A stretch of 64,000 bases of DNA. Origin: Onchidella celtica (Eukaryota > Mollusca > Gastropoda > Systellommatophora > Onchidiidae). Below, one piece after another: positions 12,101 to 50,300 of this stretch. The stretch is taken from contig OZ007569.1 in assembly GCA_963931925.1 (NCBI GenBank), forward strand, positions 68,645,920-68,709,919, given 5' to 3'. The translations under genes and the position numbers were made by a program. Under the pieces are notes generated by a model that was given only the letters and a program-made list of their open reading frames with translations, searched no databases and was not told where the DNA came from. Every line of letters starts with the position of its first letter. Position 1 is the first letter of the stretch.

Positions 12101-15100
12101 AGAAGAGCACCTTTTGGCAACTGACCAGATGTATAAGAATACCTCCGAGTGTAATTGTTAAGGAAAGGATCAATTTTATGGAGTGGTTTCTTTTTACTTG
12201 CAGGTATCCCGCCAGCTTGTGTGGACAATTCTGATTCACTGGTTTACAGACACCCTCTGGAACGCATGCAGAATTTCATCACAACAGTATTTGAATATGG
12301 GTGAATTTTTTTTTTTTTTTTTTCTTTTTAATAAGGTCTGTTTTTTTGTGATGTTGCCCAGTTTATAATTCTTTTTGAGGTCCTTAAAATCTGAAGGCTT
12401 GTGAAGCCTCTGTCATCATAATTTTATCTCTCTTCAACTTTTTTACAACCATAGAGCCACTGAAGTTAGAGGAGGATGCATACTTGAAATAAGAAAATTG
12501 ATAGAGAAAGAATATATAGAGCATTCACATAAACATCTTGAATTCTGCAGCTGAAAACTGAAATATATTTGAAAATGGAGAATAATAGCAGTAAAATCAT
12601 TTCTTTAACATTGAGACAGATTGATTTATTCAATAACAAAGTGCATTTCCATTTTCAATTTTTCAGATTTCACATTCTGGGAAATGCAAGCCAGTGTCTT
12701 GGTGCAGAATTTTACTCTGCCCCAGGGTTATCTAAAGTCATTGTTGAAAATTTGGTTGTTCATTTCAAGTTGTTACCGGATTATAGGGCCAGGCTCTTTA
12801 TACGTATCCTTGACTGAACTTTGAAGTTTCTTTTAATTATCTGTAGGATGACAAGATGCTCCTGAGTATTTTTTCGAAACATCATTTACGCATTCTGCCA
12901 CCCAAAGGAAAAATGAGATAATTATAACTGACAGTATGGCCTTTTTCTAGTTTATTGTCTCCATGAATTTGTCTCACACATAATTCTTTAAGTCAAAGGC
13001 AGATAGATGTATCTGCTATCAAGATAGTAGTTTCTGTTCTGGCAAACTAACGTAAGTGGCTATTCCAAAATCAGAGACAATAAAGTAGAAAAAGGCCAGG
13101 ACATCAGTTACACCATTTTGTTGTGGACGGCAGCATTAATTAAGCTAGTATCATTCTTAAGTGAAAGTGGAAATTATACTATAGTAACTATTATTTAATT
13201 TTTTCTTGTGTTTGAATATGTTTTGTGCCAGAACTTTTGATAGTATTTGGGTATCTTTCTTGCTTCTTTATTTACTTGTATTCATCTTTCAGTCATTTTA
13301 TGTTTTGACATGTTAGTTTCTGGTATATTGTGGTGACAGCTGCTAGAGGATCAGAGTTACAAATTGAGGGTTATATCCTTACAGCACTTTCAGGTAATTT
13401 TATCAAGCCTTTCGTGCAATGGTGTCCCAGGGAACAATTTTCCAGAGTTGCTATACCAGTTTTAACTATTCTTTGCCCAGATATATATCAGGTAAGAAGA
13501 ATAATAAGTAATTCACCCTAGAATATAATTTGTAAAATTTGACCTGTCAGGTAACATATTTAAGGAGAGTAAAATTTTGCTATCCAATCTAAGCTTATGC
13601 AACCATTGGTAAGAAAGCAGGGCTGTACTATGCTTCCAACAGGCATTGTGGCATTTTCACTTGTTTTGAAGTCTGTAATTTTTTTGTAATATGTCAGAAG
13701 AAATAAATACTTGTGTCCTCAACAAATTTAATGTTCAGTCTCAAGTCACCACATCTGTACAGGACAAACCTACCCAAGAATAGAGTTCAGATTTGGTAAT
13801 TTGGAATAGGCTAATGTTCTGGATAGGGACATGAGACGGGGATGAGTACACTGAAGTTTTTTCAGGGTTGTTATAACAATCGTTTTTCATATCCACATAG
13901 AATGAAGGATTATTAAAATGGGATATTCTTGCCTTAATCAGTGTCATATAGAATTGTCTTGTCTTATTCAGAGACTGACGGAAAGATGGCAAGTAATAAA
14001 CAGAAGAGCTGAAGAGGCGTGAGTAGTTTTGCTCTTGTGTTTTCTAAATACTTCAGCAGCGATGTCTCAGTACATGCTAGTTTAATGAGGACTGCATTCT
14101 CAGGAGTCTACAACATTCTGTGTTTGTATGAAAACAACCTGAAGGACTTTTAAGGTGACATTCTGATGTGAAACAGTGTTGTTGAAAAGTTGGAGGACTT
14201 TGTTTATTTTATTTTCAAATCATTTTAAGGCAAGATTCTGATCAATCTGGTTCCTGTTCAAGAATCGAAGGTGTGAAATTTTGTAAGAAGAGGAGAATCT
14301 AGTCTCGGGCAGAATGTAAAAAAAAGTGCAATAGCCAAGATACTGCTTCAGAGTTAGCTTGTACTTGGCTAGATTTGGCTTCTACATTAGACCTCCCAAC
14401 TCTCCTTGATTTTTGCAGGACTATCCTGGGTTTAGGAGGTATCATACTAAGCCTGGTCAGACACAGTCGGCTGCTGGCAGACAAGAAGTGCAGACCATAG
14501 TTTCCTGTATTTTCTTCGTGAATCTGGGAAGACCCTATCGGGCACAGTCAGCCATGGGTGAAAGTTGTCCGGATAATTCAGGATTTCCGATTTTCATTCC
14601 TGAAAAAAATATCTTCTCCGGTTTTCAAAAATTCCCACAGCCACTATAAGTGTGACCCGGAGATATGTAATACTGTCATTGAAACAGACCCTATCAAGGC
14701 TAAACACATGTGATCTCCACTGCCCACACAAAGGCATTGTGCTAGTACCCGAGACAAGGTAGTACTACATGTATGTATTATAAGCCTGTGGTGACAGCAT
14801 ACATGATGCAGGCTTTGTGTGAGGAACAGGCCTGTTGTATGACCATGTGTAATACAATGCAGTACTAAAGTAGGCCTGACTAACTCACACTTTTGTGGTT
14901 CAGACTGGGTCAGTGGGCATCTGAAGATCACCCGGTGATGTCATTTACTATTTATAGCTATTCCTGTACTGCTTTTCTTTTCAAGACAGGGGGATACTGG
15001 CCAGCTGGGTTATATCATGAGCAAATATGTATGGACTGTGATAAGACATTGTTTTGTGACATTTGTTTAATGGGCATGTTATTCCGCACCCGGGTTTCGG

Positions 15101-18100
15101 GTGCAAGGTATCGAAATACTGATAGGTCACTTACATTATAATCAACAATAAAATAAAATAATAATAAGCAAAGGAAACTGGCAATGTTCACTAAAGAATA
15201 TTATGGACAAAATGGTTGATTGCTGGCTGAAGTACAGACTGAGATGGAAAATAAAAACCACTGACCTGAGGTAAATGTTTTATCACCAGCCTGTATTTCA
15301 CTGACAATTTCAGGTTCAGGAGTGGACCCTTTGGAAAATTTGCTTTTCAGATTTTTTAACCTTGAGTTGCTTTCACTCATGCAGTCAGTTTCTGCCAGTA
15401 TTTCTTTGATGTACATTGTGCTGGCAGCATCTGACTGTGTCTGGCCAGGCTTAAGTATGATACAAGGGGACAAGGTGGTCTAGAGGCAAGGTGCTCGCCT
15501 CTCATGCCAAGGGTCCCGGGTTCAAAACCCGGCCGGTGCAGGCATGTTGGAAGTTTGGGATTTTTCTCATATTTTCGTGTCCCTGATCCTATTGGGGGGT
15601 AGGATCGAGTACCTAGTCTTCTCGGATAAGGACGAAAAAATTCGGAGGGCCCGTGTGCACGTTGCGCATGTTAAAGATACATTGGCAGTTGGAAATCGAA
15701 AAGAGCAGGCCGAACAGGCCGCTGCCCGGGCAAAATTAAATAAAATGCATCCCAGCATTCCCTCCTCTCCTCCCTCATCTTCCCCAGCCCCTCCCCCCCA
15801 AAAAACCCGCCGACCGGCGCTGCACTGTGGCGAGGACGTGCCTGCTCCAGTTATAACTGGGCTGCAATGGCACAAAGGCAAATTTCCCAAATGGGATTAA
15901 AGTTATACAAATACAAAAATACAAAATACTTCCTTTAGGGTGCTGGAGGGACACGAGAAACAATTTTGTTTTTCATCATCATCATTGCCTTTCTCATCCT
16001 GGATCAGGGTATAGGCCACCAACAAACACTTTCCATCCCTATCTATCATGGGCCAGCCTCTTTACATTATTCCAAGTCTTTCCGCTTCGTTGCACATCAT
16101 TTTCTCTGGCTCTTCTCCACGTTCCGCGCGGCCTTCCTCTTGATCTCTTGCCCTGGGGATTCCAATCCAATACCTTCTTCGTGATGCTGTTTCCTGGCCT
16201 CCTGAGAGTGTGGCCGATCCATCTCCATCGCCTCCTACCGATTTCCTCTCTGACTGGGCTCTGTCTTGTTCTTTTCCATACAATTTCATTGCTGACCTTG
16301 TCTGTCCATCTGATTTTAAGTAGCTTCCTCAAACATCTGTTGATGAAAACTTGGATTCTCTTTATGCAGGCCTGGGACGCATTCCAAGTCTCACATCCAT
16401 ACAACAGGACTGACTTCACGTTCGAGTTGAATATCCTCAGCTTTGTTTTTAGAGATATATCCTTGGTTCTCCAAATCTTGCTTAAGGACGTGAAAGCTGC
16501 CTGTGCCTTTCCAATTCGTGCTTTGACTTCTGCCTCTGTTCCTCCCTTATTGTCAATGATACTACCAAGATAGCAGAAGGACTCTACATCTTCCAGTGGT
16601 TGATCTCCTACTCTGACTTGTGCGCTTGGGGGTGCAACAATTTTTAGGACCTTCGACTTCGCAGGATGTATCCTCAATCCAATAGATTCTGAAATTTTGT
16701 TTAGAGCTGTAGTCTTTGCTTGCATCTGGTCGTGTGTGTGCGACAATAGTGCCAAGTCATCTGCAAAATCTAGATCGTCCAGCTGTGTCCATGGGGTCCA
16801 TTGTATGCCATTTCTTCCTCCACTGGTGGTTTCTTTCATAAGCCAATCAATCACCAGGACAAACAGAAATGGGGACAGCAAACAACCCTGCCTAACACCA
16901 GTCTTGATATCAAAGCTGTCAGTAAGCTCGCCATCGTGTACGACTCTGCAACTTGTCCCCTCGTACATGCTCTTGATAAGGTTCACCATCTTCTCTGGGA
17001 TTCCATAATGTCTCAATATTCTCCACAGTGTTTCTCTATCGATGCTATCAAAGGCCTTCTCGTAGTCAAGGAAGTTCACTATCAGTTGGGAGTTCCACTC
17101 TAGCGACTGCTCTACTATGATTCTCAGCGTGGCGATCTGGTCGGTGGTTGATCGATTACTCCTGAAACCAGCTTGCTCCTCACGAAGTTTTTGGTCTGTT
17201 GCATTCTGTATTCGCTTGAGAATAATCCGATTGAAAACCTTTCCTGGGATGGAGAGAAGTGTGATTCCTCTGTAGTTACTACAATTGCTAAGGTCCCCTT
17301 TTTTTGGAAGCTTCACGAGGTGTCCTTCCTTCCAGTCCTTTGGAAACTTGCCTCCGATCCAAATCCTCGAGAATAGTGAGTGCAGACCCTCTGCAGCCCC
17401 AGCAGCATCTGCCTTCAGCGCCTCTGGTGGGATCTGATCTGGTCCAGCTGCCTTGCCTCGATTTAACTGCTTTATGGCATCATTAATCTCTGCTTTAGTC
17501 GGAGGGTCGCAACTGATCGGTAAATCATTTCTTGCGGGTAGAATGTCGGGTGGGTTACTTGGTGGAGGTCTGTTCAAGAGGCTGTTAAAATGTTCTATCC
17601 ATCTTTTTGCCTGAGCTTCCTTTCCAAAAATAGCCTTCCTGTTGTAATCCTTGACAGGAACTTCAGGTTTTCCATATTTTCCAGCAAGAGTCTTTGTAGT
17701 CTGGTAGAGGATCCTCATGTGTCCTCCTGTTGCTGCCTTCTCTGCTAACATTCCTATGAACTCCTCTTTGTCTTTTTTAATTGATTTTTTGACCTCTTTA
17801 GCTGATGCTCGGTACTCTTCCTGGTTACCAACTCTTGAGCTTCTTGTATGACTTGCATTTACCTGTTCTTTTAGGTCTCTTCTTATCCTTATCAAGTCCA
17901 GTGATTTTTGACTGATCCATTCCTTGTGTTCCACTTTCTTTTCCCCAAGAACATCCTGACATGTCGATGTAAGTACTCCTTTTACCTTAGCCCAGTGAGT
18001 CTCCAAATCTACTGTCTCTTCGAGGTCAACAAGGGGTTTGAATCTATTCCTCAGTGTCAGCTGGAACTCTTCCTTCTTGTCTCCATCCAGAAGGCTCACT

Positions 18101-21100
18101 TGAAACTTTCTCCTCTTTGTTCCTGCTCTGGTACCTTGTTTCTTGAGGCGGAGTTTGAGTCTTGCCCGCAGCATGTGATGGTCAGATCCAACATCAGCTC
18201 CTCTCTGTACTATGACATCCTCCAGTGAGCGTCTGAATCGTCGGGTGATGCAAAAGTGGTCAATCTGGTTTTCAGTTACTCCATCCGGTGAAGTCCAAGT
18301 GGCCTTATGGATCCTCTTGTGTGGGAATACTGAACCTCCAATCACATAGCTGTTAAATGCGCAGAAACTTGCAAACCGCTCTCCATTCTCATTCATTTGT
18401 CCCAAACCATTGCACCCCATAATGTCCTCATACCCTGTATTGTCCTGTCCTATCTTGGCATTGGCGTCTCCCATTATAATGTTCACATCTTTTCTTGGCA
18501 ATGTGTCAACTATTTCCTGAAGCTGGTTGTAGAAATCGTCCTTGTCCTCATCGGTTGCTTCATTTGTTGGGGCGTATATCTGCACAATGTTCATGTTGAT
18601 GTTCTTGTTCTTTGTAGTAAATGATGCCAATATAATTCTCCTTCCGTAGGGTTCCCATCCCCTCAGTGACCTCTGGGCGTGCTTGCTCAAGATGATCGCT
18701 ACTCCTTCTGTATGCTTTTTGTCCTCCCTTCCAGAATACAAAATCTTTTCCCCAGAATTAAGTTGTTTCAGTCCGGACTGTATCCAGCGGGTCTCGCTAA
18801 CTCCAAGTATGTGCAGTCTGTATCGCCTCATCTCCATTGTAACCTGGGCACTCTTTCCTGTTTCATACATGGAGCGGACATTCCACGACGCAATCCGGAG
18901 TGACTTGTTTGATGAAGGAGCAGTCAGGCCATCTGCACCAAGAAAAGATGTGAACATTATAATGGGAGACGCCAATGCCAAGATAGGACAGGACAATACA
19001 GGGTATGAGGACATTATGGGGTGCAATGGTTTGGGACAAATGAATGAGAATGGAGAGCGGTTTGCAAGTTTCTGCGCATTTAACAGCTATGTGATTGGAG
19101 GTTCAGTATTCCCACACAAGAGGATCCATAAGGCCACTTGGACTTCACCGGATGGAGTAACTGAAAACCAGATTGACCACTTTTGCATCACCCGACGATT
19201 CAGACGCTCACTGGAGGATGTCATAGTACAGAGAGGAGCTGATGTTGGATCTGACCATCACATGCTGCTGGCAAGACTCAAACTCCGCCTCAAGAAACAA
19301 GGTACCAGAGCAGGAACAAAGAGGAGAAAGTTTCAAGTGAGCCTTCTGGATGGAGACAAGAAGGAAGAGTTCCAGCTGACACTGAGGAATAGATTCAAAC
19401 CCCTTGTTGACCTCGAAGAGACAGTAGATTTGGAGACTCACTGGGCTAAGGTAAAAGGAGTACTTACATCGACATGTCAGGATGTTCTTGGGGAAAAGAA
19501 AGTGGAACACAAGGAATGGATCAGTCAAAAATCACTGGACTTGATAAGGATAAGAAGAGACCTAAAAGAACAGGTAAATGCAAGTCATACAAGAAGCTCA
19601 AGAGTTGGTAACCAGGAAGAGTACCGAGCATCAGCTAAAGAGGTCAAAAAATCAATTAAAAAAGACAAAGAGGAGTTCATAGGAATGTTAGCAGAGAAGG
19701 CAGCAACAGGAGGACACATGAGGATCCTCTACCAGACTACAAAGACTCTTGCTGGAAAATATGGAAAACCTGAAGTTCCTGTCAAGGATTACAACAGGAA
19801 GGCTATTTTTGGAAAGGAAGCTCAGGCAAAAAGATGGATAGAACATTTTAACAGCCTCTTGAACAGATCTCCACCAAGCAATCCACCCGACATTCTACCC
19901 GCAAGAAATGATTTACCGATCAGTTGCGACCCTCCGACTAAAGCAGAGATTAATGATGCCATAAAGCAGTTAAATCGAGGCAAGGCAGCTGGACCAGATC
20001 AGATCCCACCAGAGGCGCTGAAGGCAGATGCTGCTGGGGCTGCAGAGGGTCTGCACTCACTATTCTCGAGGATTTGGATCGGAGGCAAGTTTCCAAAGGA
20101 CTGGAAGGAAGGACACCTCGTGAAGCTTCCAAAAAAAGGGGACCTCAGCAATTGTAGTAACTACAGAGGAATCACACTTCTCTCCATCCCAGGAAAGGTT
20201 TTCAATCGGATTATTCTCAAGCGAATACAGAATGCAACAGACCCAAAACTTCGTGAGGAGCAAGCTGGTTTCAGGAGTAATCGATCAACCACCGACCAGA
20301 TCGCCACGCTGAGAATCATAGTAGAGCAGTCGCTAGAGTGGAACTCCCAACTGATAGTGAACTTCCTTGACTACGAGAAGGCCTTTGATAGCATCGATAG
20401 AGAAACACTGTGGAGAATATTGAGACATTATGGAATCCCAGAGAAGATGGTGAACCTTATCAAGAGCATGTACGAGGGGACAAGTTGCAGAGTCGTACAC
20501 GATGGTGAGCTTACTGACAGCTTTGATATCAAGACTGGTGTTAGGCAGGGTTGTTTGCTGTCCCCATTTCTGTTTGTCCTGGTGATTGATTGGCTTATGA
20601 AAGAAACCACCAGTGGAGGAAGAAATGGCATACAATGGACCCCATGGACACAGCTGGACGATCTAGATTTTGCAGATGACTTGGCACTATTGTCGCACAC
20701 ACACGACCAGATGCAAGCAAAGACTACGGCTCTAAAAAAAATTTCAGAATCTATTGGATTGAGGATACATCCTGCGAAGTCGAAGGTCCTAAAAATTGTT
20801 GCACCCCCAAGCGCACAAGTCAGAGTAGGAGATCAACCACTGGAAGATGTAGAGTCCTTCTGCTATCTTGGTAGTATCATTGACAATAAGGGAGGAACAG
20901 AGGCAGAAGTCAAAGCACGAATTGGAAAGGCACAGGCAGCTTTCACGTCCTTAAGCAAGATTTGGAGAACCAAGGATATATCTCTAAAAACAAAGCTGAG
21001 GATATTCAACTCGAACGTGAAGTCAGTCCTGTTGTATGGATGTGAGACTTGGAATGCGTCCCAGGCCTGCATAAAGAGAATCCAAGTTTTCATCAACAGA

Positions 21101-24100
21101 TGTTTGAGGAAGCTACTTAAGATCAGATGGACAGACAAGGTCAGCAATGAAATTGTATGGAAAAGAACAAGACAGAGCCCAGTCAGAGAGGAAATTGGTA
21201 GGAGGCGATGGAGATGGATCGGCGACACTCTCAGGAGGCCAGGAAACAGCATCACGAAGAAGGTATTGGATTGGAATCCCCAGGGCAAGAGATCAAGAGG
21301 AAGGCCGCGCGGAACGTGGAGAAGAGCCAGAGAAAATGATGTGCAACGAAGCGGAAAGACTTGGAATAATATAAAGAGGCTGGCCCATGATAGAGAGGGA
21401 TGGAAAGTGTTTGTTGGTGGCCTATACCCTGATCCAGGGTGAGAAAGGCAATGATGAAAAATGATTAACTTACTTTGAGTACATTTCAGTGATTTGTGTC
21501 TGTGTTCTCCTTTCGATGGAAATTATAACTTGATACATGTAGTTTCAGCCAAGACGCACAAATCAACTCGCCGTATTCCATCTGTCAATTTGAGTTTATG
21601 TCGCTGATGTCAAAAGTGCAACAATGCGCACCACAACCCTTCATAATTAAAGGAAAAAGTCTAGTACTTACCTTATTTATACATGTGCAATTTTTGGATA
21701 TATAGTGGGAGAGTGAGAGGTTCGTCTTGGTATTCTGTGTGTGGGGTTTCAGTTTGCATTTATAAAATTATAGGGCATGGTCACACTTGCCCCTCGAGAT
21801 GTCCCTTTTTGAAGTGGTTATTTTAGTTGGCAGATTTGCAACAGTTTCTCAGAGGTAGTTTTGTTCAGATGTGAAACTCAAAAATGTTTCTTACAGAGCA
21901 GAACATGATGATGAGGATGATCCTGAATCTCAAGAAGTATTGGAGGAACAGCTGGTGAGACAGTTAACTAAGGAATACCTCGAGTTGTTAGGTAAGTATC
22001 TGTACCCAACCTTTGATCACATCAGTGATTGTTCATGCAAATGTGAAAACTGGCATTCATTGGAGAGAATTTCTATCAGTTCATCATGAGCATTGTCCAT
22101 GATTAATAGATAAAAAACAGGATTATACCGGAAAAGGTTACAATATTGAACTGCTCAGGCATAAATGGACATGGTATTTAAATCTTGAATGGAGGGGTTA
22201 CTATGATTATGTTAATGGCTGGGAATACAAATAAAAACAGCATCAGGTTTAAGTGTCTCACAGATTTAGTAGGGAGATGCCTTGAAGGAGTAGTATTTTG
22301 TAAGTGTATGTTATTTGACTTTTGTGTGGCGTTTACAGAATAAAAAAGAAAATTTGATCATCTGTGCTTAACACATAGTAAAGCAAAGAGTGATTTTGAT
22401 TTATAATCAATACGCATATGACTGTACCAGAAAAGTAAGCACCATTATTTCATTCATGCGCTTTTTCATTTACTAATAATAAGAAATTACACACGGTTTT
22501 GACACCATTTTATTAAAGCCTAACCAGTTCTTATGAATGAAGTTTGTTGGTTACTTGGTGTTTGTATGGTAGGTTTTCATTGTCCGTTGGTGTTGCAGTG
22601 TTGGTGTTATCAGGCAAGACATTGAGTTCTGAAGCGAAGGAGGAAATGGCCATGGAAGATGGAGGTGACACCAGCAAGCAGCAAGGTGGCACCCCTTGCA
22701 ATTTTAAAGAACTAAGTGAATTGGGCATCACTGTCATTGGCACGCAAGTAAGTCTGTCTGCATCAGTAGCTGTCAGTATTGTTATAACTTTATGCCAGGG
22801 GTGGTGAGTCCTTTTTCAAGAGGGTGTCAAATTGGTGGCAATTTTCTACCTAATACATTTCCTCATACGCTTATGGTAATTTTGAACTGAAGATTTTATA
22901 ATTAGTAATTATTACATATTTGTATTTTACCAAGCTAAAAACGGTTCTTGAATTATTGATTGGAAGAAATCACATTTAATCCTTTGAACCCTGATGTCCT
23001 GATTTTCCCTACAGCATATCCCTGGCCTGCTGAGCTCATGGTAACAAAATTGAGGGCACTCCACACATGTGTACCTGTGAATAGGGATAGAGTGATAGAC
23101 ATTGTAGCACATCATCGGTATTCCAGGGAAAATGGTTCATCTGGTTAATTTGTTGCATTTCTTTGGAATTGGAATTAAGTACATTGTGATGTGATTTTAT
23201 GACCTGCTTAAAGTATTCAAATGTATGTTCTTGGAACGATAAAATACAATGTATCATACAGTCCTGACACTTTTATGAAATACAGGTTCATTATTGCATT
23301 TTTTTCTTTATAACCAAAATGAAAATCCCATCTTTCACGGTGCAACTTATCCTATATAAAAGCTGGGTTTTTTTTTTTTACAGGAACTCTATCCATCCAT
23401 AATCATGTGCCTTCTCACTGGTTTTTCCTGGTCGGACACTTCTGTGTGCCATAGATGTTCTCATCTACTATGGCCAGTTTGCAAACAGGTATCTACTGAC
23501 CTAGAGTAATTACGATTCAGTATTTTTTTTTTTTGTCATTCTATTTTGAAGATGTAAAACTCAAAACAGAAAAGAATGTACCAGCTCAGTAAAGAAAAAG
23601 GACAAGGCTTTACATACTTTTCATTTTTAGGCAGTTTTAGGTTTTACAGGAAAGACTTACTAAATGTGAAATATGAGAGGTGGTAGAGCATTGCCATCCC
23701 TCAAAATGAGAAGAGTGCTGCTCAGAAATCCACAATATTAATTATTAGTCCTTAATATTTAACCTCATCACCACTACTTGCTTTTCCCTGCCATATACCT
23801 GAACAGCACATTCTCATTATTGTGACGTGTGCTATCTATACCACACATCGCCTGTCCACAGCACAGTGACTGGGTTAATAGTAATGTTTTTGGATTGTTA
23901 GACCTTGCGATACTTTCTCGTTAACGCTCACCCTGCGCGCTACCCTTAAAGCCCGCTGCCTGGTCAGTGACTTTACGGAGAATCTTATCTGGGGTCACTG
24001 ACCTGTGCCGCTATACTATGACCACATACGCTGTCCACGTGGTTCAGTTTTTATTGATCGGTATGAAAACATTCGCTGCTATGCCTTATCACGCTTGATA

Positions 24101-27100
24101 ATGAATTAACCAGCAAAACCTTAGTCTGTCAGTCTCTAACCAATGATCTGACTTATGATTCCAAACTGACAGCTGTAGTTTTTGTGAGAACGAAGCATGA
24201 TAACTAGCCACGCCCTCCCAAACCCTACACAAATAGTTTCATCCTGATTGACGCATACTAATAAACCAACGTGGGCATTTGGGGCAAAGATTATTTCAGA
24301 GCTTGTTTCTGATTGGTTCTTAGATACAGACAACTCCAGATGGTGGTCAGCTTATGAGAAAATGAGATAATATTCCAAATTTGTTGAGCAACAGTTCGCA
24401 TGTCGATGTTACATCTTTTGAAAGTGTGGGGAGAGCCTTTGAATTATTTGAAAGCTTAGTCTTTGTGATTCTGACCAGTGGTTCACTGGTTAACATGTCC
24501 ATGTCACAATGCCTTTGATTTAGAAGAGATACAGTGAACAATAGCACGGTGGTTACATCTCAAAAAGGTCAGTGACCTGATGCGTAAAAATACGGCTTGT
24601 GCGTTGGGCGGTCAGCTTGACCTTGCCGACTTTTGCTGCCCGTGCGGCGTGAGGGCTTGCGAAACCTGGGCGGCAGGGTGAGCCACTGAGGCTTAACATA
24701 ATCCATCACCTGTGCACAACAATCCAGAAGGTCATAAAATAACACTGTATTCTATCAACTTTCCTTGTAGCTGGTAGCCAACAATCAGATGTCGGAGGAA
24801 GCAGCACAGCATGTGTTCATGTCCATTCTCTCAGGGTTACAACTGCATGGTCAACATGAGGCCTGTCAGTCCAATCTATTGTGCTTGTCTCTCATATTTT
24901 ATGAGACTTTGGTGAGTCCAAATGTCTTTGTCATAGTGCAAAAATCATAACACTATAAGCTGTGTTTTGCTAATTTTGTGTTCTATCATTTGTTCCATTC
25001 CAACAAAATTTGAGCTGAGTCATTAATTTCTTAACATGTGGTCTAAGTGTCTGTCTTCCTTTACATGTGCTGTTTGACAGAGCGCTTTTGAAGGAAGGTC
25101 AATGTCACGAGTGGAGTGAGCGATAGTTAATAATTACGGGGGGAAAGGAGGAGAGTAAAATTAACGCACAGAGACAAGCGAGAAAGGCGTGCATGTTATG
25201 AGTGGGGGGTCTGAATGAGGCGAAAGCGCTGTAGTACTATCACTGCAAGTTAGAGGGTCCTACTGAACGGACGCTAGGAAGAGCCCAGGGGGCGGACATA
25301 AGTGAAAGCAGTCGGGAGACGGATGAGTGTTGTTCCAGTGATGACTGGTAGGTAGGACGTTGATTGATAATTATGATTGATGTATTATATGATATTCGTC
25401 TATTACTATGATGTAAATAAGTAGATGTGAGGAATGTGGAAGTCCTTGATATTGGATATAGCAATGTGCGCCATGAGCGATAGATGAAAGTGAGTTCATG
25501 GATTTGTAGCACGAGTGAGTATTGTATACTCCGATGGAGATGTGTTACCGTAAGATGTGTGGTGAGTGAAAGGTGAACTATCGTGTATACGCTTCATGAG
25601 TTGTAAGGAGAGGTGGAGTGAATAGAAATGGAAGGGTGTTATACCAATGTAATGTTATTCTTGTAGGTGTCGGGGACGGGCCGAAGAGCCACCTCGATGA
25701 GCACAAGTGATAGGCCAGCATAGGGCCGGAGGCCATACATAGGCCAGAAGTGAGACTGTTGGTGCAGGACAGTAGAGGCACATAAAGTCGTGGCAGTCAG
25801 GCCACGGACAGGGACGTAGATATGAGAGTGAATGAGATACTTATTATTATTGCCATGTTGATGGGCAAGTGAACTGATAAGGTGTATGACAATAGGAAGG
25901 CGATATTGAGAGACTGCGGTGCCAGTGAATCATTAATGTACTATTAAGACCCTGAGGGGAGAGGCTGAGGCCGAAGTGCCTTTAGGAAGTAACTACCGGA
26001 TCGTGGATCCGAGGAAGAGTGCATGTGAGAGTAAGGCCGTTGTACGGCAGTGAAGTTCAATAATATAATGTATGTAATTGCGCTATTATCTGTATAATTT
26101 ATGTATAATAAATGTGTGAGTCTGATGGGTTGTTCTGTTAAGTGTTAAACTTGTTCGTTCATGATTGTTGTCCTGTCATAACTTATTACATCTCCCAGTC
26201 TGGGATTTGTGACAGTCAACACCTAGTTGGCCAGCATGTCTGGTTTTTAAACTGGAAGCAAGCAATACAGAAATATTATACAAGCAAATGTTGAGCACAA
26301 AAACAGCAGTGATCTTGGGACTGGCAATAAGAATGAAACCACAGAACTCTGTAGATAGACTAGATCAAGAAATAGGTCAAGTCACTGTGCTCCCTACTAT
26401 GTTGCCTTGAGACGGGACCAAAGGAGGGCAAGGCTTCGGTAAAAAAGTTTGAAAATCATGCACATTTGTTGTGAAATATCAGTGTGGACTGTTGTTAGTA
26501 GTCGCTTGCCCTCCTTTGGTCTGCAGTGGCGCAGCGCAAGGTGGCCACATGAATCGACACCATTTTTTAGTGGATGAAAGGGGGGCAGCACTGCAGAGTG
26601 CCCTCTCTTGTGTATTGTATAGCTCTGTGAATGTAATTGACAAATTTATATTCAGTTTGGACAAGATCCTTTCATTTTTACCATGTATAAAAATTTCATG
26701 ATTAAGCAGTCAGGTTTTCACTTCTGTGAAATGCCTTAACTTTCTGTCCATCCACTAATTTACATGTTGCTAGTAAGTTGTTAAATCCAAACTGCAATGG
26801 TCATGACTGAAATTAGAAACCTAATTAATATTTTATGTTTTATCTCATTGCAGAGACAGAAATTTCCAGCCCTTACTCGTGTTTTACATCAAATTCCAGA
26901 TGTGGATGCAAAACTGATTGATGTAAGTAGATTTGTAGATAAGTAGTTGGTTTTTGAAATGAAACAAAAAATATATTTTAGAAATTGCAGTTAATTTAAT
27001 CACATTTCCAGAATCATATCTACTCTGATAGTTCTTAGCAATAGCATATATGTCTATTGCAAGTCATTACACATTTGCTAAAGTGGTTCACTTAGAGGAG

Positions 27101-31902: not shown

Positions 31903-32290
31903 TTCCAGACTGGGGAAGTTTTCTACTGACCCTGTCAAAGCTGGACAGGACTGTGGAAAAAATCTGATTGAAGATTTGAAATCTGCGGTCCCAAAGTAAC
32001 AAAGTCAGTGAGCAGAATTGGCTTTTTCTTGAATAATAACTATGAAAAAAATTATCACAAATTAAATTTTAAAAAATTTTAAGTCCAGCATTTGACCAAC
32101 AGATTTTGAAGTGTGTAATGAGCCTGAGTATATAGGTATCTAGATCAAAATCTATGCTGATGTCCACTTCACAACTATCAAGCATGAACGTCTATGCTTA
32201 TAGGCACGAAACTACTCAGCGCCCTTTATATGTAGCATTGAAATGTTAGGCACACACCTATAAGCGCTTACCTCATCATCATTGCCTTTC

Positions 32291-35200
32291 TCACCCTGGA
32301 TCAGGGTATAGGCCACCAACAAACACTTTCCATCCCTCTCTATCATGGGCCAGCTTCTTTACATTATTCCAAGTCTTTCCGCTTCGTTGCACATCATTTT
32401 CTCTGGCTCTTCTCCACGTTCCGCGCGGCCTTCCTCTTGATCTTTTGCCCTGGGGATTCCAATCCAATACCTTCTTCGTGATGCTGTTTCCTGGCCTCCT
32501 GAGAGTGTGGCCGATCCATCTCCATCGCCTCCTACCGATTTCCTCTCTTACCGGGCTCTGTCTTGTTCTTTTCCATACAATTTCATTGCTGACCTTGTCT
32601 GTCCATCTGATCTTAAGTAGCTTCCTCAAACATCTGTTGATGAAAACTTGGATTCTCTTTATGCAGGCCTGGGACGCATTCCAAGTCTCACATCCATACA
32701 ACAGGACTGACTTCACGTTCGAGTTGAATATCCTCAGCTTTGTTTTTAGAGATATATCCTTGGTTCTCCAAATCTTGCTTAAGGACGTGAAAGCTGCCTG
32801 TGCCTTTCCAATTCGTGCTTTGACTTCTGCCTCTGTTCCTCCCTTTTTGTCAATGATACTACCAAGATAGCAGAAGGACTCTACATCTTCCAGTGGTTGA
32901 TCTCCTACTCTGACTTGTGCACTTGGGGGTGCAACAATTTTTAGGACCTTCGACTTCGCAGGATGTATCCTCAATCCAATAGATTCTGAAATTTTGTTTA
33001 GAGCTGTAGTCTTTGCTTGCATCTGGTCGTGTGTGTGCGACAATAGTGCCAAGTCATCTGCAAAATCTAGATCGTCCAGCTGTGTCCATGGGGTCCATTG
33101 TATGCCATTTCTTCCTCCACTGGTGGTTTCTTTCATAAGCCAATCAATCACCAGGACAAACAGAAATGGGGACAGCAAACAACCCTGCCTAACACCAGTC
33201 TTGATATCAAAGCTGTCAGTAAGCTCGCCATCGTGTACGACTCTGCAACTTGTCCCCTCGTACATGCTTTTGATAAGGTTCACCATCTTCTCTGGGATTC
33301 CATAATGTCTCAATATTCTCCACAGTGTTTCTCTATCGATGCTATCAAAGGCCTTCTCGTAGTCAAGGAAGTTCACTATCAGTTGGGAGTTCCACTCTAG
33401 CGACTGCTCTACTATGATTCTCAGCGTGGCGATCTGGTCGGTGGTTGATCGATTACTCCTGAAACCAGCTTGCTCCTCACGAAGTTTTTGGTCTGTTGCA
33501 TTCTGTATTCGCTTGAGAATAATCCGATTGAAAACCTTTCCTGGGATGGAGAGAAGTGTGATTCCTCTGTAGTTACTACAATTGCTGAGGTCCCCTTTTT
33601 TTGGAAGCTTCACGAGGTGTCCTTCCTTCCAGTCCTTTGGAAACTTGCCTCCGATCCAAATCCTCGAGAATAGTGAGTGCAGACCCTCTGCAGCCCCAGC
33701 AGCATCTGCCTTCAGCGCCTCTGGTGGGATCTGATCTGGTCCAGCTGCCTTGCCTCGATTTAACTGCTTTATGGCATCATTAATCTCTGCTTTAGTCGGA
33801 GGGTCGCAACTGATCGGTAAATCATTTCTTGCGGGTAGAATGTCGGGTGGGTTACTTGGTGGAGGTCTGTTCAAGAGGCTGTTAAAATGTTCTATCCATC
33901 TTTTTGCCTGAGCTTCCTTTCCAAAAATAGCCTTCCTGTTGTAATCCTTGACAGGAACTTCAGGTTTTCCATATTTTCCAGCAAGAGTCTTTGTAGTCTG
34001 GTAGAGGATCCTCATGTGTCCTCCTGTTGCTGCCTTCTCTGCTTTCTCTGCTAACATTCCTATGAACTCCTCTTTGTCTTTTTTAATTGATTTTTTGACC
34101 TCTTTAGCTGATGCCCGGTACTCTTCCTGGTTACCAACTCTTGAGCTTCTTGTACGACTTGCATTTACCTGTTCTTTTAGGTCTCTTCTTATCCTTATCA
34201 AGTCCAGTGATTTTTGACTGATCCATTCCCTGTGTTCCACTTTCTTTTCCCCAAGAACATCCTGACATGTCGATGTAAGTACTCCTTTTACCTTAGCCCA
34301 GTGAGTCTCCAAATCTACCGTCTCTTCGAGGTCAACAAGGGGTTTGAATCTATTCCTCAGTGTCAGCTGGAACTCTTCCTTCTTGTCTCCATCCAGAAGG
34401 CTCACTTGAAACTTTCTCCTCTTTGTTCCTGCTCTGGTACCTTGTTTCTTGAGGCGGAGTTTGAGTCTTGCCAGCAGCATGTGATGGTCAGATCCAACAT
34501 CAGCTCCTCTCTGTACTATGACATCCTCCAGTGAGCGTCTGAATCGTCGGGTGATGCAAAAGTGGTCAATCTGGTTTTCAGTTACTCCATCCGGTGAAAT
34601 CCAAGTGGCCTTATGGATCCTCTTGTGTGGGAATACTGAACCTCCAATCACATAGCTGTTAAATGCGCAGAAACTTGCAAACCGCTCTCCATTCTCATTC
34701 ATTTGTCCCAAACCATTGCACCCCATAATGTCCTCATACCCTGTATTGTCCTGTCCTATCTTGGCATTGGCGTCTCCCATTATAATGTTCACATCTTTTC
34801 TTGGCAATGTGTCAACTATTTCCTGAAGCTGGTTGTAGAAATCGTCCTTGTCCTCATCGGTTGCTTCATTTGTTGGGGCGTATATCTGCACAATGTTCAT
34901 GTTGATGTTCTTGTTCTTTGTAGTAAATGATGCCAATATAATTCTTCTTCCGTAGGGTTCCCATCCCCTCAGTGACCTCTGGGCGTGCTTGCTCAAGATG
35001 ATCGCTACTCCTTCTGTATGCTTTTTGTCCTCCCTTCCAGAATACAAAATCTTTTCCCCCGAATTAAGTTGTTTCAGTCCGGACTGTATCCAGCGGGTCT
35101 CGCTAACTCCAAGTATGTGCAGTCTGTATCGCCTCATCTCCATTGTAACCTGGGCACTCTTTCCTGCTTCATACATGGAGCGGACATTCCACGACGCAAT

Positions 35201-35308
35201 CCGGAGTGACTTGTTTGATGAAGGAGCAGTCAGGCCAGTGGAGTCCTTTCGGCTTTGTCCATTGTCCTTCATTGAATCTACAGGTGCAGATGCTCCCCCT
35301 TCTCCCAA
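32291..35308 (-). CDS. LINE copy C ORF, endonuclease-reverse transcriptase, 1005 aa
   Basis: The start ATG reads [18 protein letters not shown]. Residues from about 35 to 270 form an AP-like endonuclease with [29 protein letters not shown] and [10 protein letters not shown]. Residues from about 500 to 800 form the reverse transcriptase with [51 protein letters not shown] and FCYLGSIID. The C-terminus is basic ([25 protein letters not shown]) and ends LYPDPG. There is no RNase H domain or CCHC knuckle. All motifs that define catalysis are present. Translation is presumably from the bicistron-free LINE transcript. Confidence 0.93.
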   Translation of the reverse strand: MGEGGASAPVDSMKDNGQSRKDSTGLTAPSSNKSLRIASWNVRSMYEAGKSAQVTMEMRRYRLHILGVSETRWIQSGLKQLNSGEKILYSGREDKKHTEGVAIILSKHAQRSLRGWEPYGRRIILASFTTKNKNINMNIVQIYAPTNEATDEDKDDFYNQLQEIVDTLPRKDVNIIMGDANAKIGQDNTGYEDIMGCNGLGQMNENGERFASFCAFNSYVIGGSVFPHKRIHKATWISPDGVTENQIDHFCITRRFRRSLEDVIVQRGADVGSDHHMLLARLKLRLKKQGTRAGTKRRKFQVSLLDGDKKEEFQLTLRNRFKPLVDLEETVDLETHWAKVKGVLTSTCQDVLGEKKVEHREWISQKSLDLIRIRRDLKEQVNASRTRSSRVGNQEEYRASAKEVKKSIKKDKEEFIGMLAEKAEKAATGGHMRILYQTTKTLAGKYGKPEVPVKDYNRKAIFGKEAQAKRWIEHFNSLLNRPPPSNPPDILPARNDLPISCDPPTKAEINDAIKQLNRGKAAGPDQIPPEALKADAAGAAEGLHSLFSRIWIGGKFPKDWKEGHLVKLPKKGDLSNCSNYRGITLLSIPGKVFNRIILKRIQNATDQKLREEQAGFRSNRSTTDQIATLRIIVEQSLEWNSQLIVNFLDYEKAFDSIDRETLWRILRHYGIPEKMVNLIKSMYEGTSCRVVHDGELTDSFDIKTGVRQGCLLSPFLFVLVIDWLMKETTSGGRNGIQWTPWTQLDDLDFADDLALLSHTHDQMQAKTTALNKISESIGLRIHPAKSKVLKIVAPPSAQVRVGDQPLEDVESFCYLGSIIDKKGGTEAEVKARIGKAQAAFTSLSKIWRTKDISLKTKLRIFNSNVKSVLLYGCETWNASQACIKRIQVFINRCLRKLLKIRWTDKVSNEIVWKRTRQSPVREEIGRRRWRWIGHTLRRPGNSITKKVLDWNPQGKRSRGRPRGTWRRARENDVQRSGKTWNNVKKLAHDREGWKVFVGGLYPDPG

Positions 35309-35513
35309 GATAAAAGACTGATTTAAAGTATTTGCTTGTGTTTCTGTAACTGGTTTATTTTTACAGGGTGGGTAGTTGGCCCACCGCCAACTGGCTCTTC
35401 TCGGGAGACCAGGACCTTTGCACCTTTAGTCGCCTCTTACGACACGCAGTATCACGTCAGATGTATTCTTTGCTATCCCTCTTCTGCAAGAGGGTCCCGC
35501 ATCTGCACGGGCG
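35309..35513 (-). promoter_or_regulatory. LINE copy C 5' UTR with hairpins
   Basis: Read on the - strand, the element begins CGCCCGTGCAGATGCGGG (a CCCG/CGGG hairpin). Then comes a perfect 7-bp hairpin CCCTCTT-GCAG-AAGAGGG at 35477-35494, then GTCG-TAAGAGG-CGAC. The same elements occur in copy D (hairpin at 47845-47862). An internal promoter is expected in such LINEs but no specific motif was recognised. Confidence 0.6.
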
Positions 35514-42835: not shown

Positions 42836-43182
42836 AAATTAAATGCACTGATTAGATGACAAGTTGACCTGCCAACAGCTGAACACAGTTATTGGCTATA
42901 ACTGACAATTTACACTGCAAAACTTCTCAAAAAACAATGAGCCACAATTATCACATGCCACCAACAACAAACAAGTATAGATCTAGATCACTGTCTGAAA
43001 GTCTACGAAAATTAAATGCACTGAAGAGATGACCAGTTGACCAGCCGACAGCTGAACACAGTTATCAGACATAACTGACAATTCAGACTTTACAAAACTT
43101 CTCAACAAATATTTGAGCCACAATTATCACATGTCACCAACAGCAAAACAAGTGTAAATATAGATCTATGTCTAAAAGTCTG
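42836..43182. repeat. Two-copy tandem duplication, 173-bp unit
   Basis: The unit 42836-43008 and 43009-43182 align along their whole length with scattered differences. Shared words include CAGCTGAACACAGTTAT and GAGCCACAATTATCACATG, and both end near TAGATCTA and a GTCTGAAAGTCT-like sequence. It has no coding content. Confidence 0.88.
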
Positions 43183-44351: not shown

Positions 44352-47300
44352 CTGGAAATATTTAAATGCACTATGATTACATGGCAAAGGGGAAAAAAAA
44401 AAATATACACTGTATATATGTACATGTAAACACAAATATAACCAGAATATAACCCGGAGTACATGTATACCATCAACACAGCAGTCTGTTCTTCAAAACC
44501 ACAAACTGGTCAACTGACCAACTCATCTTCCTTCCCTCCCCTCCCTTTTTGCACTGATAACACCCCTCCCCTCCCCCACCCCAAAACACCACAGTAAGGC
44601 ACATTTCTCTTCAATGTCATGTCCTTGCTCCCTCCATTCATCATCATCATTGCCTTTCTCACCCTGGATCAGGGTATAGGCCACCAACAAACACTTTCCA
44701 TCCCTCTCTATCATGGGCCAGCCTCTTTACATTATTCCAAGTCTTTCCGCTTCGTTGCACATCATTTTCTCTGGCTCTTCTCCACGTTCCGCGCGGCCTT
44801 CCTCTTGATCTCTTGCCCTGGGGATTCCAATCCAATACCTTCTTCGTGATGCTGTTTCCTGGCCTCCTGAGAGTGTGGCCGATCCATCTCCATCGCCTCC
44901 TACCAATTTCCTCTCTGGCTGGGCTCTGTCTTGTTCTTTTCCATACAATTTCATTGCTGACCTTGTCTGTCCATCTGATCTTAAGTAGTTTCCTCAAACA
45001 TCTGTTGATGAAAACTTGGATTCTCTTTATGCCGGCCTGGGACGCATTCCAAGTCTCACATCCATACAACAGGACTGACTTCACGTTCGAGTTGAATATC
45101 CTCAGCTTTGTTTTTAGAGATATATCCTTGGTTCTCCAAATCTTGCTTAAGGACGTGAAAGCTGCCTGTGCCTTTCCAATTCGTGCTTTGACTTCTGCCT
45201 CTGTTCCTCCCTTATTGTCAATGATACTACCAAGATAGCAGAAGGACTCTACATCTTCCAGTGGTTGATCTCCTACTCTGACTTGTGCGCTTGGGGGTGC
45301 AACAATTTTTAGGACCTTCGACTTCGCAGGATGTATCCTCAATCCAATAGATTCTGAAATTTTGTTTAGAGCTGTAGTCTTTGCTTGCATCTGGTCGTGT
45401 GTGTGCGACAATAGTGCCAAGTCATCTGCAAAATCTAGATCGTCCAGCTGTGTCCATGGGGTCCATTGTATGCCGTTTCTTCCTCCACTGGTGGTTTCTT
45501 TCATAAGCCAATCAATCACCAGGACAAACAGAAATGGGGACAGCAAACAACCCTGCCTAACACCAGTCTTGATATCAAAGCTGTCAGTAATCTCGCCATC
45601 GTGTATGACTCTGCAACTTGTCCCCTCGTACATGCTCTTGATAAGGTTCACCATTTTCTCTGGGATTCCATAATGTCTCAATATTCTCCACAGTGTTTCT
45701 CTATCGATGCTATCAAAGGCCTTCTCGTAGTCAAGGAAGTTCACTATCAGTTGGGAGTTCCACTCTAGCGACTGCTCTACTATGATTCTCAGCGTGGCGA
45801 TCTGGTCGGTGGTTGATCGATTACTCCTGAAACCAGCTTGCTCCTCACGAAGTTTTGGGTCTGTTGCATTCTGTATTCGCTTGAGAATAATCCGATTGAA
45901 AACCTTTCCTGGGATGGAGAGAAGTGTGATTCCTCTGTAGTTACTACAATTGCTGAGGTCCCCTTTTTTTGGAAGCTTCACGAGGTGTCCTTCCTTCCAG
46001 TCCTTTGGAAACTTGCCTCCGATCCAAATCCTCGAGAATAGTGGGTGCAGACCCTCTGCAGCCCCAGCAGCATCTGCCTTCAGTGCCTCTGGTGGGATCT
46101 GGTCTGGTCCAGCTGCCTTGCCTCGATTTAACTGCTTTATGGCATCATTAATCTCTGCTTTAGTCGGAGGGTCGCAACTGATCGGTAAATCATTTCTTGC
46201 GGGTAGAATGTCAGGTGGGTTGCTTGGTGGAGGTCTGTTCAAGAGGCTGTTAAAATGTTCTATCCATCTTTTTGCCTGAGCTTCCTTTCCAAAAATAGCC
46301 TTCCTGTTGTAACCCTTGACAGGAACTTCAGGTTTTCCATATTTTCCAGCAAGAGTCTTTGTAGTCTGGTAGAGGATCCTCATGTGTCCTCCTGTTGCTG
46401 CCTTCTCTGCTTTCTCTGCTAACATTCCTATGAACTCCTCTTTGTCTTTTTTAATTGATTTTTTGACCTCTTTAGCTGATGCTCGGTACTCTTCCTGGTT
46501 ACCAACTCTTGAGCTTCTTGTACAACTTGCATTTACCTGTTCTTTTAGGTCTCTTCTTATCCTTATCAAGTCCAGTGATTTTTGGCTGATCCATTCCTTG
46601 TGTTCCACTTTCTTTTCCCCAAGAACATCCTGACATGTCGATGTAAGTACTCCTTTTACCTTAGCCCAGTGAGTCTCCAAATCTACTGTCTCTTCAAGGT
46701 CAACAAGGGGTTTGAATCTATTCCTCAGTGTCAGCTGGAACTCTTCCTTCTTGTCTCCATCCAGAAGGCTCACTTGAAACTTTCTCCTCTTTGTTCCTGC
46801 TCTGGTACCTTGTTTCTTGAGGCGGAGTTTGAGTCTTGCCAGCAGCATGTGATGGTCAGATCCAACATCAGCTCCTCTCTGTACTATGACATCCTCCAGT
46901 GAGCGTCTGAATCGTCGGGTGATGCAAAAGTGGTCAATCTGGTTTTCAGTTACTCCATCCGGTGAAATCCAAGTGGCCTTATGGATCCTCTTGTGTGGGA
47001 ATACTGAACCTCCAATCACATAGCTGTTAAATGCGCAGAAACTTGCAAACCGCTCTCCATTCTCATTCATTTGTCCCAAACCATTGCACCCCATAATGTC
47101 CTCATACCCTGTATTGTCCTGTCCTATCTTGGCATTGGCGTCTCCCATTATAATGTTCACATCTTTTCTTGGCAATGTGTCAACTATTTCCTGAAGCTGG
47201 TTGTAGAAATCGTCCTTGTCCTCATCGGTTGCTTCATTTGTTGGGGCGTATATCTGCACAATGTTCATGTTGATGTTCTTGTTCTTTGTAGTAAATGATG

Positions 47301-50300
47301 CCAATATAATTCTCCTTCCGTAGGGTTCCCATCCCCTCAGTGACCTCTGGGCGTGCTTGCTCAAGATGATCGCTACTCCTTCTGTATGCTTTTTGTCCTC
47401 CCTTCCAGAATACAAAATCTTTTCCCCAGAATTAAGTTGTTTCAGTCCGGACTGTATCCAGCGGGTCTCGCTAACTCCAAGTATGTGCAGTCTGTATCGC
47501 CTCATCTCCATTGTAACCTGGGCACTCTTTCCTGCTTCATACATGGAGCGGACATTCCACGACGCAATCCGGAGTGACTTGTTTGATGAAGGAGCAGTCA
47601 GGCCAGTGGAGTCCTTTCGGCTTTGTCCATTGTCCTTCATTGAATCTACAGGTGCAGATGCTCCCCCTTCTCCCAAGATAAAAGACTGATTTAAAGTATT
47701 TGCTTGTGTTTCTGTAACTGGTTTATTTTTACAGGGTGGGTAGTTGGCCCACCGCCAACTGGCTCTTCTCGGGAGACCAGGACCTTTGCATCTTTAGTCG
47801 CCTCTTACGACACGCAGTATCACGTCAGATGTATTCTTTGCTATCCCTCTTCTGCAAGAGGGCCCCGCATCTGCACGGGCGGCTCCCTCCATTACCAGAG
47901 GTATATATTAGATTCTTGAAAACAATAGATTATGTTTTGACCTTAGAAATATAGGACTATTAAGCAGTTCTGTTGCTGATGAAGAAATGTCTTACCTTCT
48001 GAGCTTCTGTATCTCTAATCCTCACAGATCTCAGCTGGCCGTTCAGCTCAAAAAAAACCTCCCTGGTTCCCGTGGAGCTCAAATCTCCGACGGCCAAAGT
48101 CACAATGGACAGATTTTTGCCCTTTTCAAGGCTGACCTGGTACAAAAGCAAAATGAAAGTGACTGAAAACTTCTTTCTTTCACAGAAAGTTTTTGTTGTT
48201 TTTGTTCTCTATGAGAGCAAATATCAGCAAAAAATTGATAGCCTTGGGAACAAACTTATGAGGGTCAACATTATGAAGGAAAAAAACACTTGATTAAATG
48301 TGGAAAGAGCGAGCTTAGACAGATGGTCTGATCACAGTAAATTTTTTTTATATTTCTATTGTTCTATGGTAAATATTGTTACATGATGTAAACACTACAC
48401 GCTCCTCTATGATATCTTTACTTGCTTCTGACTAATGACACAAGGGCTTACCTCTAAATCTGTTGCAATTTTGGGTCCAATCAGGAAAGTCTTTGTATCA
48501 AGCTTATCCACAGGTCCAAATTTTCCACGGAAGTCCAAGAAGTCATCTGTTACCTGCAGAACAAAGCTTGGACGTTCATCTACACTTATCCTGTATCACA
48601 AATCTTATATACAATAAAATGTCGCCAGAATTCTATGATTAGAGACAGCTTAAAGAACAAAGCATAATGTCTTAAATTTTTCTACATTTATTGCTTAAAC
48701 ATCATTCAAGCATTCCAATAGAGATTGATAAATTATGGAACAAGCACATAATTAAACATAAAACAAAAATGAGAGTCAGTTACTAAGGTTTTACCACAAA
48801 AAAAAAAAAAAGCATGTTCAATAAATCTCAATATGTGCCTCCCTAACTAGCCATGGTTATCACATCTCCATCTGTTTGCTTAGTTTCCTCTAATTGTGCT
48901 TACAAGCTTTGGTTAGATATTCTCAATTTTTCATAACCTGTGCAAGCATGCATTTATTTTGCTCCTGACTATAGTGCATTAGGGGAACCTATTATTGATG
49001 TGATGATACTTCATTCGAGACAGACCACAACATTATTAGTTTTTCTTGAAGTTTTCAAGGGCATCAGAGAATTTGTCCAGGGCAAGTTTTGTAGACGATA
49101 TCAAGAGCCACATGGCATACAATTGTAATTCCACTTTTTTTAAAAACATTGAGATATTTGGTATGCTTGTAGACCTTGACAGCCCGCAGGTTGTGTTATA
49201 ACTTGTGGATTAAATTCTGAAAACGAATGGTTAAATAACATTTTTTAAAAATATCTGACTGTTAAGTCTTATATTGCGGGTATAGAGCAAAATTGTTGTA
49301 TTTCCAGGTTTATGTATTGGGGTTCATAATGGCGATACTGTAATAATGACAAACTGCTTCTTGCGTTTTTTTTGTTATTCCGCTATCTTTCACCAGTTCC
49401 AAGTTACAGAGATCAGTATTATTGTATCTCCCTTAAAAATGAGATCATTGAGAGCAATTTTGTGGTATTTCCGAGTAAGCTCCCATTATTCATAAACCTG
49501 GAGATACAACAATTTTGCTTTATACCTGCGATATAGAGCCATTCAGTATTTTGCTTATCCTGAAAAATTTACAAAAACCAAGATGCAATAGTTTACCCTA
49601 CTGCCCTCGATATCAGAAAATAAGTTTTGGGAACCCAGCGCCCAATGAAAACTTCCAGAAAAGACACAGTAAGTTTCTGTCTAATGCATTTCCATACTGG
49701 TTATTTCTTTATTTATTTAATGGTCACTGGCATGACATAACATCTCCCTCACATAATCATTGCTGACAATGGAAAGTTTGCAAAACAGTGACATAGATCT
49801 GGAACATGGAAATAAAATAAAACATAATCATGAAAATATTGTGAAAAGAAATAAATCCGTAGCTTGAAAAATGACCTTTTTGGTGATTCAATGAAATGTA
49901 TCCTGACATATTCAGCAGCCGGTGAGTTAAACTGAATGAAAAGGAAGTTTTCTAAAACATAAGGAATTTACCTTTGGATACAATGCTGCACTCATCACAT
50001 CCTCATCTGTAAGTTTTCCATATTTCTCTTCCAGAGTCTCTTTCATCTTTTCAAGGTCCAGGGCTGGTAAAATGGCACCAGGTCGGCCTTCAATCTTTTT
50101 GGCACCCTTTAGAACCTGCAAAAATTTAGTAGAAATTGGACATAAACATCTGCAGTTTGATGTACAAGCTTGAACACACACACAATTAATTTGAAGACAG
50201 TAATCCCATCCGCCCGTTCACAGAAACACTTTACTAGACTTTAATCATTTACCATTCTTTCATTTGACAGAAATCACCACCAAAATTTTAACAAACACAA

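Follow-up and report, generated by a model that had tools for sequence, protein, structure and literature searches.

An inverted pair of RTE-like LINE copies in an XPO5 intron of Onchidella celtica, probably left by two insertions, arm-to-arm exchange and a lost centre

The window analyzed here, a stretch of 64,000 nucleotides from the genome of Onchidella celtica, carries the exportin-5 gene XPO5 on its + strand. One XPO5 intron (14019-21896; 7,878 bp, with GT...AG borders) contains a large inverted repeat built from two LINE copies, A and B. The exons that flank this intron, joined as a 47-aa peptide, match human exportin-5 (PDB 3a6p, E 1.1e-08) and the Pfam family Exportin-5 (E 2.4e-08), which bears out the placement of the repeat in an earlier note on this DNA. 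A neighboring gene on the - strand is presumably that for pyruvate carboxylase, which its exons resemble by motifs in open reading frames; copy D, one of two further copies of the same LINE in the window, lies between two exons that we take, on the same kind of motifs, to belong to pyruvate carboxylase. The features are as follows.

14019..21896, + strand: XPO5 intron holding the inverted repeat, with GT-AG splice borders and flanking exons that match exportin-5
15979..18498, - strand: arm A, an RTE-like LINE copy antisense to XPO5, with its 3' tail at the left
15979..17568, - strand: base-side 1,590 nt of arm A, containing 14 of the 15 sites that mismatch arm B; the closest relative found is L026 (on C2)
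17569..18498, - strand: loop-side 930 nt of arm A, containing 1 of the 15 sites that mismatch arm B, and an exclusive two-arm allele at 18293
18499..18931, - strand: the section of copy A that lies in the loop, 433 nt on the 5' side of the arm; the copy begins near element position 277
18932..18937, no strand: 6-nt filler at the head-to-head junction
18938..21457, + strand: arm B, an RTE-like LINE copy sense to XPO5, starting near element position 710
32273..35513, - strand: copy C, a full-length copy of the same LINE, with an open 1,044-aa frame (endonuclease and reverse transcriptase) and a 14-bp target-site duplication
44641..47881, - strand: copy D, a full-length copy of the same LINE, with an open 1,044-aa frame

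The arms are 2,520 nt each and 99.4% complementary, with 15 mismatches, no gaps and a 439-bp spacer. The near-perfect 2.5-kb repeat that had been reported, with a spacer of this length, is thereby confirmed; its outer ends, given as 15974 and 21456, were off by 5 and 1 nt and belong at 15979 and 21457. The arms match far better than chance would allow, since both derive from a single repeat family. The tails of A and B point outward, both outer flanks open with AAAAA beside the tail, and at the junction each copy is without its 5' part. The arms have no flanking DNA in common, the outer flank being different for each. When a 41-mer across the junction was sought in the genome, allowing up to 3 mismatches, it was found in one place, which gives no sign of a second copy of the whole repeat elsewhere. 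Neither arm has its own target-site duplication on both sides, as ordinary target-primed insertion would leave; at the inner and outer junctions of the repeat the longest match is 4-5 nt. The 6-nt filler, taken with two bases on each side, gives a 10-mer that is present at element position 222, a weak hint that it may have been copied from the element, given that 151 of 5,000 random fillers produced such a match as well.

Copies C and D, on which the earlier note was silent, belong to the same family as the arms. The frame of copy C matches PF03372 (E 3.7e-08) and then PF00078 (E 3.4e-35), so that a single ORF holds an AP-type endonuclease followed by a reverse transcriptase, and the arms were correctly named as LINE sequence. 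The element is 3,241 bp long, and its 3' end lies about 20 nt from the stop, including an (ATG)n tail. In the 1.14-Gb genome a search for the family gave 2,402 first-look candidates, of which 40 were scored, and one internal 31-mer has 1,220 exact matches. Target-site duplications of 10-15 bp stand next to the (ATG)n tail in 30 of the 30 full-length loci fetched, which are the best relatives of copy C (L001 being copy C itself). The family looks young, abundant and RTE-like; its single ORF, short 3' UTR with tandem repeats and short target-site duplications resemble those of the RTE clade, a putative assignment based on likeness of features rather than on a tree, with RTE, RTE-X, BovB and Proto2 as candidate sub-clades. 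SR3 of Schistosoma mansoni, an RTE-clade non-LTR retrotransposon, is 3,211 bp long, encodes AP-endonuclease and reverse transcriptase in a single ORF, and has short 3'-terminal repeats, 10-12-bp target-site duplications and a 177-bp 3' UTR (PMC1291365). The present element is like SR3, as described there, in its length, its 1,044-aa single frame, its (ATG)n tail and its 10-15-bp duplications, but unlike it in having about 20 nt, tail included, in place of the longer 3' UTR. Between 68.555 and 68.756 Mb on C3, a region of 201 kb that includes the window, at least seven copies of the LINE occur against 0.42 expected from the genome average, a cluster recognized post hoc.

The closest relatives of arm A differ from one side of it to the other. 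Over its base side, from alignment column 1500 on, arm A has 6 differences to L026, the nearest aligned copy, and 14 to arm B; in a genome search with this part of the arm, L026 came next after A itself and arm B was absent from the 40 scored places. On the loop side (columns 710-1500) A and B show a single difference, and the next-nearest copies 3-4. Two alleles, 915C and 1359A, are present in both arms and absent from the 36 other aligned copies. A 9-bp deletion, also in both arms, recurs in 5 of these 36, the five having been chosen for their closeness to B. In the whole genome a 31-mer containing 915C matches twice, once in each arm. For 1359A there are 8 matches of 1,220, and since 6 of them lie outside the arms the sharing of this allele by A and B is weak evidence. 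The 31-mer for the deletion has 86 matches and that for 1660T has 32, A included and B not; three copies (L031, L044 and L045) combine the deletion with 1660T, and the lineages are therefore mosaic, and exchange may have run in either direction.

The XPO5 pair belongs to a class in which longer examples occur. L037, on C1, is likewise a head-to-head pair, with 3,210-nt arms of 99.07% identity and a 573-bp spacer, and L038 (C1:35403500-35413499) is a tail-to-tail pair of the same LINE with arms of about 3.2 kb and a 3.17-kb spacer. A duplication of 12-13 bp can be read in the flanks on both sides of each L037 copy, and two independent insertions can therefore yield a head-to-head arrangement. 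The arms of L037 belong to different lineages, yet they have in common three alleles not seen elsewhere among 43 copies. Private alleles confined to two arms, which we took as the mark of gene conversion, are found in A/B (915C) and in L037 (1897A, whose 31-mer has 2 matches in the genome, both in the arms of this pair).

Among the 43 copies, 6 of 13 two-copy alleles fall in the close pairs A/B, L037 and L038. With five copies added, one of which, L043, matches by its best piece over 2,101 of 2,520 nt, 4 of 19 do so (three in L037, one in A/B and none in L038), and wider local pairs add 3 of the 19. These come from L032/L041 (two) and L039/L040 (one), both of them opposed copies 11-14 kb apart, and from their allele sharing we consider that exchange may reach beyond 10 kb. 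Altogether the local pairs, seven out of the 1,128 that can be formed from 48 copies, account for 7 of the 19. Three of these seven pairs, namely L038, C/D and the direct pair L042/L043, have no two-copy allele, and none was found among the 48 copies in the other window combinations A/C, A/D, B/C and B/D. The p-values for local pairs are descriptive because the pairs were hand-picked. A run-length permutation test for conversion was not significant for A/B (p 0.27), L037 (p 0.10) or L038 (p 0.07), and the scarcity of A/B mismatches on the loop side has p 0.07 after scanning. Within the first 100 of the 1,220 marker sites, all on C1, 2 of 99 gaps are shorter than 7 kb, with 0.8 expected at random; both are opposed copies, L037 and L038, and close pairs do not clearly exceed chance among these 100 listed sites. 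The allele sharing suggests that neighboring LINE copies in this genome swap sequence, which would blur estimates of age or lineage from single copies.

We favor, at a probability of about 70%, an origin in two separate insertions, followed by exchange between the arms and by loss of the centre, with a long nuclear dsRNA of no dedicated role as the outcome. Two RTE-like LINEs would have inserted close together in the XPO5 intron, facing opposite ways; copies A and B would afterwards have traded loop-side sequence; and the centre would have been lost, taking along the two 5' ends and the two inner target-site duplications, probably through repair of a break between the arms. We arrive at this from what is seen directly, that is, the arm structure, the nearest relatives of A that differ by side, the two-arm allele, the absent duplications and the intact comparator L037. 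The missing target-site duplications would then be attributable to the lost centre. Against this origin stand the lack of significance of both the run-length and the scan test for A/B and the mosaic make-up of the lineages. Work on palindrome-arm conversion and on inverted-repeat break repair indicates that inverted copies can exchange and that palindromes can be break-prone (PMC7999016, PMC6103520); the present case differs from those systems in being deduced from sequence alone and in its long spacer of 439 bp. A similar pair in wild-type yeast, with 6-kb arms and a 280-bp spacer, is described as stable (PMC7999016), so long-spaced inverted pairs can be stable in wild-type cells, and the break step is weakened accordingly. 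What we infer is the sequence of these steps, which way the exchange ran, and the break itself. Polishing errors between the arms could also be a source of the shared alleles. Among the titles and abstract openings listed we found no literature on head-to-head RTE pairs with conversion, which does not prove its absence. If this reconstruction is right, a hairpin in a small-RNA gene becomes a readable history of two insertions, exchange and loss of the centre.

The same arrangement could instead have arisen in a single event, if each end of one break had primed reverse transcription of a LINE RNA (double target priming) and the two cDNAs had then been linked head to head by their ends; the shared loop-side alleles would stem from template switching. 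Both tails face outward with AAAAA next to them in the outer flanks, no junction has a target-site duplication, and the 5' part is missing from both copies where they meet, all of which would suit such an event. The comparator L037, however, has two ordinary target-site duplications in the same orientation, and a genome search for an exact pattern in which two full-length 5' ends face one another across 0-30 nt, which would miss truncated or mutated ends, gave no match; we consider this route unlikely. That one LINE was copied onto itself by snap-back synthesis or a template switch, the base side of A being converted later by another copy, seems very doubtful: the exclusive allele 915C and the near-identity on the loop side agree with it, but the arms are mutual closest relatives over the loop side alone, A being nearer on its base side to L026 on C2 than to B, and there is no flanking DNA common to the arms. 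Missed-adapter or palindromic read errors can create inverted repeats; with arms that differ at 15 sites, base-side nearest relatives that differ and a separate outer flank for each arm, we give an assembly artefact of this sort almost no weight. Twin priming of one RNA was rejected because both arms represent the same part of the element, and nesting of B into A because LINE sequence was not found to the right of B. As to one composite insertion with a single outer duplication, any direct repeat that the outer flanks have in common is at most 5 nt long.

In the predicted RNA fold 2,511 of the 2,520 arm positions are paired with their cognates, and the 2.5-kb stem dominates. The transcribed XPO5 intron is expected to form a long nuclear dsRNA, which most likely would be spliced out, perhaps ADAR-edited, and degraded without a dedicated role. 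Of what had been proposed for this RNA, the long double-stranded fold holds as a prediction; a special tie to exportin-5 finds no support, given the longer pair L037 elsewhere. Exportin-5 binds short pre-miRNA-like hairpins, and a 2.5-kb intronic duplex is therefore not an obvious cargo; the pairing of a hairpin repeat with the exportin-5 gene is most simply a coincidence. A functional hairpin RNA, whether as a source of endo-siRNAs against the LINE, as an ADAR hotspot with an effect or as an XPO5 feedback element, would be compatible with any of the origins above. The strong predicted fold and the young look of the LINE, whose frames are open in copies C and D, speak for it; with a longer pair at L037, and close pairs not clearly above chance among the 100 listed marker sites, we think it highly improbable. 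It is also very improbable that in this genome opposed copies of a young LINE keep correcting each other by gene conversion, so that intronic hairpins like that of XPO5 would stay near-perfect and provide lasting long dsRNA, possibly siRNA, against a family that is still mobile.

Long near-perfect inverted sequences in pre-mRNAs are depleted yet numerous: a survey of 49 organisms counted 54,479 of them in pre-mRNAs, where tandem controls came to 144,989, and 4 in mRNAs (PMC7006430). Like the sequences counted there (>300 bp, >96%, mostly from repeats), the present arms are long, nearly perfect and repeat-derived, and would be part of a pre-mRNA; at 2.5 kb they are well above the 300-bp cut-off of that survey (PMC7006430). 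The listed titles and abstract openings yielded no literature on a hairpin in XPO5 and nothing on point for exportin-5 autoregulation, neither of which proves absence. Should the dsRNA be processed, the locus would offer a natural test of how animals handle very long intronic duplexes.

Scans of the window with Rfam, at the gathering threshold, and for tRNAs, with ARAGORN, gave 0 hits each. The stretch at window positions 15470-15760 resembles a tRNA-derived SINE and carries a tRNA-like B box, and ARAGORN gives no tRNA there; similar letters, compared by eye, also flank the LINE in L010. Three deletion-type copies of the LINE lie on the same strand of C3 at 25580565, 25592644 and 25604723, spaced by exactly 12,079 bp, which looks like a tandem segmental repeat. 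A second dispersed repeat of about 747 bp occurs in the window at 23921-24662 and 52794-53525, in direct orientation and with 91.7% identity, and a unit of about 175 bp is present at 42830-43181 as two tandem copies of 84% identity.
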